Shown here in pieces: positions 45,646 through 49,391 of a stretch of DNA of 49,957 nt. The translations under genes and the position numbers were made by a program. Below the pieces are notes generated by a model. That model saw only the letters and a list, made by a program, of their open reading frames with translations. It had not been told where the DNA came from and did no database searches. Location of the stretch: positions 1-49,957 of the forward strand of contig WAKC01000046.1 in the NCBI GenBank assembly GCA_015523605.1, in the 5' to 3' direction. This DNA comes from Candidatus Geothermarchaeota archaeon (GTDB lineage: Archaea > Thermoproteota > Nitrososphaeria > Geothermarchaeales > JDFR-13). Each line of letters starts with the position of its first letter. The stretch's first letter is position 1.

Positions 45646-45648
45646 CTC

Positions 45649-46413
45649 CTACTCTGTATAAAGCTGGTCAAACAACCCCAACATCCTAATACTCACTATC
45701 CTATATCCATCCCTAATATATTGATTAAGCATCTCGACCGATTTCAGAGTTAACATCCTACCATCAGGAGACTCGATAACAGCCTCGAACAACGGTTTAT
45801 AATCCCTCATAACTTTGACAATCGAACCGTCCACCATGAATATCACATCCTTAGGATAGAGATTGACCACTTCATGTGTAGAGACCAATATAGTCTTTCC
45901 AACGCTGTTTCTATTTAAAATCTTACTTACAAGAAGCTTACTTCTAAAGTCTAGAGAGGCGAAGGGCTCGTCAACAATATATAGGTCAGCCTCCTTGGCT
46001 AGGCATGTAAGAAGAACCAGTTTCCTCCTATTACCACTCGATAATGACGAAAAGGTATGTCTGGAATATTCATATATCTCCAATTCTCTTGCAAGGCGGA
46101 TACCCTCACTACCAAGATACTCTATAACATCCCCCACAACAAGATGTGGAGGTAACTGGGTATCCTCAAAACAGTAGGATACACGTTTAATCAACTCATT
46201 AGAATCTTTCACAGGATCCATACCTAAAACCTTAATAGACCCTTTCAAAGGCTTTAGAAGACCTAAGAGAAGATATGTCAATGTTGTTTTCCCACTGCCA
46301 TTGGGACCGACCAGTAGGGTTAAACCTGAACTAATATCTAGCTTATCAATTGATAAGGTGAAACCAGATGGATATTTAAAGAGGAGATCAGTAATCCTCA
46401 CGGTCTCTTCCAT
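45649..46413 (-). CDS. ABC transporter ATP-binding protein (start refined from 46479 to MEETV...)
   Basis: LLVGPNGSGKTTLTYLLLGL, FSSLSSGNRRKLVLLTCLA, LYIVDEPFASLD. Confidence 0.85.
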   Translation of the reverse strand: MEETVRITDLLFKYPSGFTLSIDKLDISSGLTLLVGPNGSGKTTLTYLLLGLLKPLKGSIKVLGMDPVKDSNELIKRVSYCFEDTQLPPHLVVGDVIEYLGSEGIRLARELEIYEYSRHTFSSLSSGNRRKLVLLTCLAKEADLYIVDEPFASLDFRSKLLVSKILNRNSVGKTILVSTHEVVNLYPKDVIFMVDGSIVKVMRDYKPLFEAVIESPDGRMLTLKSVEMLNQYIRDGYRIVSIRMLGLFDQLYTE

Positions 46414-46862
46414 CCATATCCCCCAATAACCAACATGACACCAAAAATAAAGAGAATAGCCAATATCGGGATAGTCCAATTATCGACCCTCTCTATATGT
46501 ACTCCTACAGTCTTCTCACCAACCTCTACACCAACTCTATATGCATAATCCACTAGTTCAAGGGTAAACTCACCCTCAACCACATATAGCTCATCCACAT
46601 CGTAGATATAGGCCTCAGACCCATTATAAATAGTAATCTTATATATGCCTGGATATACAGGAATACCATAAGAAGCAAAAACGCTTTTATGTTCCATGAA
46701 GGGTGGGATATCAATAGGTTTGAATGTGAAGCTGGTATCAACAAACATCCAGTATTCGTTGGAAATCAGCTTCCCAAATTCATCGATGTATAGAAATGCA
46801 TAAATGGTTATTGAAACAAGTAATAAAGCTAAACCAATTGAAAAAATTAGAAAGCTTCTCAT
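46398..46862 (-). CDS. Membrane protein with N- and C-terminal TM helices and extracytoplasmic domain
   Basis: FLIFSIGLALLLVSITIYAFLY N-terminal TM; WTIPILAILFIFGVMLVIGGYGW C-terminal TM; overlaps neighbours in the ABC operon. Confidence 0.65.
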   Translation of the reverse strand: MRSFLIFSIGLALLLVSITIYAFLYIDEFGKLISNEYWMFVDTSFTFKPIDIPPFMEHKSVFASYGIPVYPGIYKITIYNGSEAYIYDVDELYVVEGEFTLELVDYAYRVGVEVGEKTVGVHIERVDNWTIPILAILFIFGVMLVIGGYGWKRP

Positions 46863-47689
46863 ACTCTTCTCCCCCTAATAAACATATATACCCCCACCAT
46901 ACCCAGAATAAGATAAAATAGTATGGAGATTACTACAGTCCATATAGAGATAATATCGCTATATTCACCTACGAGGAGATACAAATATATCATATCTGGA
47001 GCAAGGACGAGTAATTGATTCGATGGAGGTAATGGCTTCAGCAATATCAATGGAAGTATCAATATCAAGGATAGCTCAATATTTCGTAATACAACACCTA
47101 CAAATAGACCGGCTAAATGATATGATATATAGCCGAGTAAAAAGGCTATTAGGAGATGAATAGATAGTCCAATATATGGAAAACCGGCTCTAAAGAGAAA
47201 TATGGAGTACCCCAAAAAAACCAGTGACCCCAGTATAGAAATATATATGAAGGCCGCCAAAGCATGTATGGTAAGAAACTTCTTCCTAGAGAGCCCTACC
47301 AAATTCATATAAACCTTATAATGGCCCCTTATTAGAGGGTCATATAAAAAAACATACGAAACAACGACCCATAATAAGCCATATAATATGGAAGCATCCC
47401 TATACATTTTTATTATAGAGGATATAACACTCCTATCCAGAAAATCTTGGTTATTTACCAATTTTAGATAATCGAACAAACTCTCATTTACCTCCATATT
47501 AATTTTCTCGAGGACTGACCAATTTGGCTCATCAAGGTAATCTGAAAGATGAACCATGACTCCTCTATATACTCCCTGTAAGTTTCCGAAGGTTAGATTA
47601 ACCATATAGACTATGGTAAAAATCAACATGGCAATTGACATATATATTAAAAACTTATGTGACCTTAACTGAAGCTCGATCGCCTTCAT
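46859..47689 (-). CDS. ABC-2-like transporter permease
   Basis: About six hydrophobic helices (e.g. FLIYMSIAMLIFTIVYMVNL, ILYGLLWVVVSYVFLYDPLIRGHYKVYMNLVGLSRKKFL); adjacent to an ABC ATPase. Confidence 0.7.
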   Translation of the reverse strand: MKAIELQLRSHKFLIYMSIAMLIFTIVYMVNLTFGNLQGVYRGVMVHLSDYLDEPNWSVLEKINMEVNESLFDYLKLVNNQDFLDRSVISSIIKMYRDASILYGLLWVVVSYVFLYDPLIRGHYKVYMNLVGLSRKKFLTIHALAAFIYISILGSLVFLGYSIFLFRAGFPYIGLSIHLLIAFLLGYISYHLAGLFVGVVLRNIELSLILILPLILLKPLPPSNQLLVLAPDMIYLYLLVGEYSDIISIWTVVISILFYLILGMVGVYMFIRGRRV

Positions 47690-47692
47690 TGA

Positions 47693-48595
47693 TTACCCCC
47701 TCTTGATGTAAATGATAATTAAAAACAAAATTATTAGCATAGATAATGTTATAACGGCTTGGATATCTACTTGGACAGTTGGACATAAATTGATGCACAC
47801 CACTTCGTTAACGACAAAATCCCTATACAAATCTATATACTCTTTAGAAAGTACAATATCTAGGTATATAAAGGAGATTTGAATTTCCTCGAAAACCGAG
47901 ACACTTTTAGCAATATTATTCAGCATCTTGATAATATCTCCTGGGAGAAGATATGCTGGGAGCACAAACATTGATTTCAGAGGTATCCGACCCCTCACTT
48001 CAGCCTTATATATTGGAAAAGCTATTTTTGAAGGTGTCTCTTCATAACCTAGTTTTGACGCCTCAATAACATACTCACTCATAAGAAGAATAACCTCCAA
48101 ATCATAGGCACCCCTTACCAATGCTGGTTTATCTGGATAATTAATCTGGCTTCCAAGGTATCTTGGATCTACATCCCCACTCAGTAAATAATCGAATGTA
48201 ATAGGGATATCAAAAAGAAACGGGCTAATCCCTATCAAATCGGTTCCAGAGTAAATATTACCCCTATAAATAAAGAAATTCATCTCAATATCTATATCAA
48301 CACGTTCACCGTTTACTATTAACCTCTCATTATAGTTAACAAACAGCTCATAAAAGCCAGACTCATTTTTCTGGGCTCTCACTTCCAAAGTACCTATACC
48401 ATCTGTTTCTAATACCAAGAATCTATAGTCATGTATTCCAGAACTGACAATAAGGATTAGCCTCTCAGATACCCTATCAAATATCAAAGGAGGTAGCCTT
48501 GATATATCCGTTATAGACGAATACTCCTCACCATTTATCAGGGATAGAGAGATAAACAAAAATACCATGAATAGGGCAAATATGTTTTTTATCAT
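47693..48595 (-). CDS. Signal-bearing, C-terminally membrane-anchored ectodomain protein
   Basis: N-terminal NIFALFMVFLFISLSLING signal-like segment, C-terminal VITLSMLIILFLIIIYIKRG TM, otherwise soluble; 3 bp from permease start. Confidence 0.6.
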   Translation of the reverse strand: MIKNIFALFMVFLFISLSLINGEEYSSITDISRLPPLIFDRVSERLILIVSSGIHDYRFLVLETDGIGTLEVRAQKNESGFYELFVNYNERLIVNGERVDIDIEMNFFIYRGNIYSGTDLIGISPFLFDIPITFDYLLSGDVDPRYLGSQINYPDKPALVRGAYDLEVILLMSEYVIEASKLGYEETPSKIAFPIYKAEVRGRIPLKSMFVLPAYLLPGDIIKMLNNIAKSVSVFEEIQISFIYLDIVLSKEYIDLYRDFVVNEVVCINLCPTVQVDIQAVITLSMLIILFLIIIYIKRG

Positions 48596-49149
48596 TTCGG
48601 TGGATAGTAAACCCTACTATAATCGTGATGATCGATTTCTGTCTCTACAAATATGCAGAAGGGTCGATTAGTTATCTCCACCACATGATGAAAATCCGCT
48701 TCAACCTTATATCTCCAACCCTGATCTGTAACATCAAAGTAATAATCGATGTGCTCCTGAAGGTCATAACTAGGGCCACAAATCCATGCATCAGACTCTT
48801 TGTAACCCAAGACCGTCCCGAATCCTACCCACCTATCAGATAGTGAGCTGTGTATATCTGCAATACCTCCTCCGATGACGAAGCCAGGTGTAGTCCATTC
48901 AACATCAACAGTAAAACTAGCTTGAACTCCGTTTCTTGCTCCAGAACCACTTAACACCAGCTGAGTAGGATCTGCTCCTTGACTCTCAATATAAGTACTC
49001 AATAATATATGTTCTAGATGACTGTTGATCATTGGATTTGCTAATACCGAGTTGTTACTATTATATACCACTAATAGAATAGTCACAAACATAATAAGAA
49101 GGATAACTATATACGGTTTTTCTACCCCAACTACCATAACAATCCCCAT
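48592..49149 (-). CDS. Putative secreted protein heading an ABC transporter operon
   Basis: N-terminal PYIVILLIMFVTILLVVYNSNNSVLA signal-like segment, then beta-rich, Gly/His-containing domain with two Cys; 4-bp overlap with the next gene. Confidence 0.6.
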   Translation of the reverse strand: MGIVMVVGVEKPYIVILLIMFVTILLVVYNSNNSVLANPMINSHLEHILLSTYIESQGADPTQLVLSGSGARNGVQASFTVDVEWTTPGFVIGGGIADIHSSLSDRWVGFGTVLGYKESDAWICGPSYDLQEHIDYYFDVTDQGWRYKVEADFHHVVEITNRPFCIFVETEIDHHDYSRVYYPPK

Positions 49150-49221
49150 AGAATTACCTAACTTTTATCTATCTATATTTGAGGATAGCATATATATCCT
49201 TAAACATGTATTTTTATATAG

Positions 49222-49300
49222 TGATTCGAATCATGTATGCACAAGTTCAAATTGATATATACATAGGTATTCGAAACAACCGTTTGTATGTATTCGATTG
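49222..49300. promoter_or_regulatory. Putative regulatory region with TTCGA-centred palindrome and repeats
   Basis: Perfect 12-bp palindrome tgattcgaatca (49222-49233), then gtattcgaaac (49267-49277) and gtattcgattg (49290-49300), in the intergenic region upstream of the secreted-protein operon. Confidence 0.35.
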
Positions 49301-49391
49301 TTAGGTTGTACGCCTCAAATATCCTATAATAACTAGTTTAAAGTCAATTAGATGGTTTAAATATTTGGAGATAAAGGAGAGGAGGGTGTTT

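Follow-up and report, generated by a model that had tools for sequence, protein, structure and literature searches.

In a stretch of 49,957 nucleotides from contig WAKC01000046.1 (hereafter the window), part of a 1.35-Mb metagenome-assembled genome (MAG) of an uncultured, thermophilic Candidatus Geothermarchaeota archaeon, we have found that a minus-strand operon of five genes is an accessory island of ~3.7 kb (45646–49391), located between a topoisomerase and an aldo-keto reductase gene. Judged from the sequences, the presence, loss and swapping of this cluster look like those of microbial weapon and self-protection genes. By analogy with known loci, we give a probability of about one half to the reading that the operon encodes a bacteriocin-like secreted effector with a dedicated surface immunity machine, i.e., that it is an archaeal competition locus. 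This reading is supported by a series of empty, five-gene and four-gene sites among relatives, a block swap beside nearly identical ATP-binding cassette (ABC) genes, a second cassette type, signal-like N-termini, and bacterial precedents. An earlier reading of this DNA, made without database searches (the sequence-only reading), had already considered a secreted, archaeocin-like product served by surface machinery of its own, and that idea is consistent with the gene content and distribution described here. The comparison covers four MAGs, with two sequences of the effector and three alleles of the ectodomain protein.

The five-gene operon

The operon is real and tightly packed. The five minus-strand reading frames were all borne out on re-reading of the sequence, with two ATGA overlaps of 4 bp, one gap of 3 bp and one overlap of 16 bp at the junctions. 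The first gene (48592–49149) encodes a protein of 185 amino acids (aa; 20.8 kDa, isoelectric point 4.7) with a signal-like N-terminus, the putative secreted effector. It is followed by the gene of a 300-aa anchored ectodomain protein (47693–48595), a putative specificity or immunity receptor, and by those of a 276-aa permease with six transmembrane (TM) segments (46859–47689), a 154-aa protein (46398–46862) and a 254-aa ABC ATPase (45649–46413). For the ATPase, a TTG start at 46479 given by a mechanical reading-frame call is unsupported by the homologues, and the start is the ATG at 46413. A possible archaeal TATA element, TATATAAAAA, can be seen tentatively on the minus strand at 49211–49220, 62–71 bp upstream of the first gene, and a similar AT-rich element also lies upstream of the homologous gene in one congener (G002).

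Presence and absence at one chromosomal site

The site is bounded by the topoisomerase (PF01131) and aldo-keto reductase (PF00248) genes. In one congener, G001, it is empty: the topoisomerase gene (L042 2803–4551) and the reductase gene (L042 4548–5510) overlap by 4 bp. The window genome and G002 carry all five genes there. In G003, the genes of the ATPase, the 154-aa protein, the permease and the ectodomain protein are followed by 294 bp without a recognisable gene for the 185-aa protein, and then by the reductase gene. When a degraded copy of the missing gene was sought in G003 with tblastn (E ≤ 10), only chance-level matches were obtained. The 185-aa protein of the window is 45% identical to a 178-aa homologue in G002, and its gene is missing from the sites of both G003 and G001. 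This series indicates that the island is accessory and that the secreted-protein gene is separately dispensable. In addition, the recurrence of the gene order at the same site in the congeners G002 (all five genes) and G003 (without the 185-aa gene) places the operon beyond chance.

A second variable spot lies beside the locus. Upstream of the topoisomerase gene, G002 (L008:794–1747) and G003 (L007:754–1689) carry a gene for a secreted protein of the GH114 family, where the window genome and G001 have an acyl-CoA dehydrogenase gene. The GC content of orthologues also differs by ~12 points within the genus, with topoisomerase genes at 40–41% in G000 and G001 and 53–54% in G002 and G003.

Cassette swap between two congeners

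We have compared G002 and G003 over 146 kb of synteny, where their mean identity is 90.1% (280 aligned windows of 500 bp). The three ABC genes stand far above this level at 97.5%, the top of 2704 sliding 1.9-kb windows (mean 0.901, standard deviation 0.024, best elsewhere 0.956). Synonymous divergence (dS) shows the same: it is 0.06–0.08 in the ABC genes and 0.34–0.57 in the topoisomerase, reductase and peroxiredoxin genes. The tract of high identity starts at ~279.2 kb of G002, where the topoisomerase gene is about to end, and resumes in the last 200–300 bp of the reductase gene. Between them is a block that cannot be aligned (G002, 281.6–283.1 kb), which takes in the 185-aa gene and all but the extreme 3' end of the ectodomain gene. 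These two genes have a GC content of 37–40% in G002, against 52% in the region, while the ectodomain gene of G003 (48%) is closer to native. The three ectodomain alleles are only 28, 36 and 38% identical in pairwise comparison, whereas the neighbouring proteins of G002 and G003 differ by just 1–4%. As in bacteriocin and immunity loci, presence is patchy and the effector and partner genes are replaced as a block, in a small sample of four genomes.

From these data we infer that the locus has recently been exchanged by homologous recombination. No terminal repeats that would suggest transposition were found at the island beyond 9-bp chance matches, so recombination through the flanking genes is likelier. 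G002 would have received its effector and ectodomain pair from a relative of higher AT content. Mis-assembly is unlikely as the source of the difference, because the G003 contig is 1.14 Mb long and reading frames run on across the breakpoints.

Two other explanations have been weighed. The sequence-only reading mainly proposed the 185-aa protein as the cargo of an exporter formed by the ABC pair, which agrees with the placement of the secreted-protein gene first in the same operon and with the ABC-2-like topology of the permease. However, the supposed cargo has its own signal-like N-terminus, and G003, which lacks the cargo gene, still has an ectodomain gene as well as pump genes that are almost the same as in G002; for these reasons we regard export by this pair as very improbable. 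A surface uptake or sensing complex is the other explanation. In it, the ectodomain protein would serve as the receptor, the 185-aa protein would bind a ligand after secretion or while held at the surface, and the ABC machine would move a small substrate, with swapping selected by viruses or by the substrate. Recombination does often vary surface proteins, and the anchored ectodomain protein is encoded with ABC genes. On the other hand, ABC-2-like topology usually goes with export rather than import, G003 does without the 185-aa gene, and no solute-binding family was matched among the operon proteins in Pfam or NCBIfam. We consider this explanation unlikely.

Families, topology and structure of the products

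Membership in a known family is established for the ABC ATPase alone. It matches ABC_tran (PF00005, 78 bits, E = 1.2e-21) and contains the catalytic motifs of an ABC transporter ATPase, with the Walker A (GPNGSGKTT), signature (LSSGN), Walker B and H-loop kept in three homologues. No family was recognised among the other products in Pfam, NCBIfam, PADLOC and PHROGs (the last searched with the four non-ATPase proteins), which upholds the statement of the sequence-only reading that the ATPase alone shows a family signature. In Pfam and NCBIfam, the permease gave no match to ABC-2 membrane families at E ≤ 1, and is thus ABC-2-like by topology only. Among the operon proteins there was no sequence match to the NisI/SpaI or LanE/LanG families of LanI/LanFEG immunity. 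Likewise, the secreted and membrane proteins had no match in Pfam or NCBIfam to curated lactococcin 972 or bacteriocin-associated membrane families.

Topology was derived for the four non-ATPase proteins from hydropathy, and it agrees with what had been suggested from the sequence. The 185-aa protein has a single hydrophobic segment, at the N-terminus, and the 300-aa protein has one at each end, with a CxxxC motif ahead of the C-terminal TM segment that is conserved among the alleles. The permease has six hydrophobic segments, and the two in the 154-aa protein enclose an outside domain of ~105 residues. PDB sequence searches with profiles of the 185-aa protein and the permease returned nothing significant, and Foldseek searches of PDB with models of the 185-aa and 300-aa proteins gave no E below 0.15. 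The best of these weak matches (VioE, flavin reductases, coronavirus spikes) were treated as noise, and no fold is claimed.

The residues kept in the 185-aa protein bring up a third explanation, also anticipated earlier, in which the operon would encode a complex for metal handling or NosDFY-like metalloprotein maturation, and the 185-aa protein would be its metal-binding client. Of the G002 homologue, five of six His and both Cys are shared with the window protein, against 45% identity overall; this conservation, read from two sequences only, is suggestive and is the sole positive sign of metal handling. The operon does share with NosDFY an ABC-2-like permease, an ATPase and an extracytoplasmic partner protein. 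It differs in that no NosD or NosY family match was found at E ≤ 1 (Pfam, NCBIfam), no metalloenzyme gene, nitrous-oxide reductase included, is present in the neighbourhood that was read (window, G002, G003), and its distribution is accessory, with the cluster missing at the G001 site and the alleles swapped. These differences speak against NosDFY-type maturation, and a metal-handling role in general appears quite unlikely.

A second cassette type

The sole other unalignable block in the 146 kb of G002 and G003 lies at 288–290 kb of G002, ~5 kb from the operon. There, between a lipoyl-ligase gene and a radical SAM lipoyl-synthase-like gene, G002 carries a second cassette (L065:1–2086 with L008:11660–12001). 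Its products are a protein of 164 aa whose N-terminus is signal-like, a permease of 413 aa and an ATPase. The two flanking genes adjoin in G003, where the cassette is missing from the site. The window genome has a cassette of this type at the same site as G002 (contig C27, L078:4498–6932); the secreted proteins of the two are 161–164 aa long and the permeases 413–420 aa. A third relative of this secreted protein breaks off where contig C2 of the window genome ends (L079:6831–7307), and a permease/ATPase pair opens contig C42 (L090:263–2175); this pair may continue the C2 locus, in which case the two contigs would be adjacent. G001 has one cassette of the second type at a contig start (L089). 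Beyond the genus, a genome of a different archaeal family (G172) has a complete cassette (L088:3587–6098; 183, 419 and 233 aa), and also a permease/ATPase pair without a recognisable secreted-protein gene (L087:3454–5483). One permease of the second type matches FtsX (PF02687, E = 3.5e-8).

According to hydropathy, the secreted proteins of both designs have signal-like N-termini. No common origin was detected for either the secreted proteins or the permeases (hhalign probability <1%), so the common layout is a matter of analogy or convergence. Common to both cassettes is a small, probably Sec-secreted protein made together with a dedicated ABC machine, and an uneven presence in close relatives. 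It is conceivable, though we put this forward only tentatively, that these are two unrelated swappable antagonism cassettes (one ABC-2-like with five genes, the other of the FtsX type with three), each with an effector of ~18–21 kDa and an ABC immunity machine, in which species trade the effector along with its recognition protein but retain the pump. They would then form a new class of archaeal protein weapons, with one type reaching a distant archaeal family.

Proposed roles and closest known systems

If the operon is a competition locus, the 185-aa protein would leave the cell by its own signal sequence, probably through Sec, and would then act on related cells. The 300-aa ectodomain protein would be the cognate immunity protein on the cell surface and would set the specificity. 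The ATPase, the six-TM permease and the two-TM 154-aa protein would form a pump that clears the effector from the membrane of the producer. That the effector is toxic, what it targets, that its partners confer immunity and how they share the work are in this scheme all inferred. As expected for a bacteriocin/immunity locus, the effector gene is linked to genes of surface and membrane partners, with secretion judged from hydropathy only.

The division of labour between pump and ectodomain protein is modelled on nisin producers, in which NisI, on the outer face of the cell, binds nisin, while NisFEG drives nisin out of the membrane (PMC8538875). The likeness lies in an outward anchored protein and an ABC transporter encoded with the effector. 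However, we found no sequence similarity to the operon proteins, and the putative immunity role here would concern a protein of 20 kDa, where the known system deals with a small modified peptide. The ectodomain protein also has a TM anchor in place of the lipid of NisI, and one permease with a two-TM protein stands where NisFEG has two permeases. Lactococcin 972-like loci (scbABC) are similar in another way: the bacteriocin is thought to be Sec-secreted, the membrane protein and ATPase are predicted to serve immunity or transport, and some strains lack a functional bacteriocin (PMC11796350). There too, an unmodified secreted protein is followed by a membrane protein and an ATPase, and effector-less strains exist, although those loci have three genes instead of five, show no family match to ours, and here the host is archaeal.

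Among archaea, the sulfolobicins SulA and SulB are protein toxins that thermophiles use against relatives, and they are patchy among strains (PMC10117752, PMC3718332). By description only, they resemble our case in host type and distribution, and are set apart from it, since no five-gene ABC cluster is described in these papers. VARTIG modules are hypervariable and confined to Thermococcales (PMC8416519); they are surface or secreted gene modules with recombination-driven hypervariability and a conflict-like layout, but consist of large Ig-domain proteins and have no ABC transporter core like that of the operon. By analogy, the operon appears to resemble known bacteriocin/immunity loci in logic and to be new as a variant.

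Several observations weigh against a competition locus. Surface receptors, phage targets and further accessory genes are likewise patchy and subject to swapping. No toxin family was matched in the operon, and the AlphaFold2 models have a mean predicted local distance difference test score (pLDDT) of 50 for the 185-aa protein (two-sequence input) and 56 for the 300-aa protein (three-sequence input). In addition, the ectodomain proteins of the window and G002, both with an effector, are 28% identical, below the 36–38% to the allele of effector-less G003, and the sample is as small as stated above. Of the sequence-only reading as a whole, the gene calls, the ABC-2-like topology and the archaeocin-like idea agree with the findings, ABC export appears less likely, and NosDFY-type maturation is unsupported.

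To our knowledge, few systems of archaeal protein weapons are known, mostly halocins and sulfolobicins, and our literature search found none described for Geothermarchaeota. An effector and a recognition protein swapped beside a kept pump provide concrete, testable candidate pairs, and a working hypothesis is gained for four orphan protein families. The second cassette type, which is convergent, points to a secreted protein with a dedicated ABC machine as a solution that recurs among these archaea.

Distribution among genomes

Homologues were searched in 60–150 relatives for each protein, and profiles of the 185-aa protein and the permease were also run against 398 genomes of the phylum. In both searches, the 185-aa protein was confined to the window genome and G002, and the 300-aa protein and the permease, among the relatives, only in the window genome, G002 and G003. 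The permease profile gave nothing else convincing in the phylum. Weak matches at E = 0.001–1 were dismissed as short, partial or running through stops, and scans of genome contigs recovered only G002 itself. Viral contigs, plasmids and phages contained no match to the operon proteins. The lack of a conserved neighbourhood in relatives, which the sequence-only reading had named as evidence against itself, is thus borne out in part: order and site are conserved in G002 and G003, and outside the genus the 185-, 300- and 276-aa proteins were not found in the sampled genomes. An operon-bearing congener is public as WAKB01000001.1, Candidatus Geothermarchaeota archaeon S012_44_esom.
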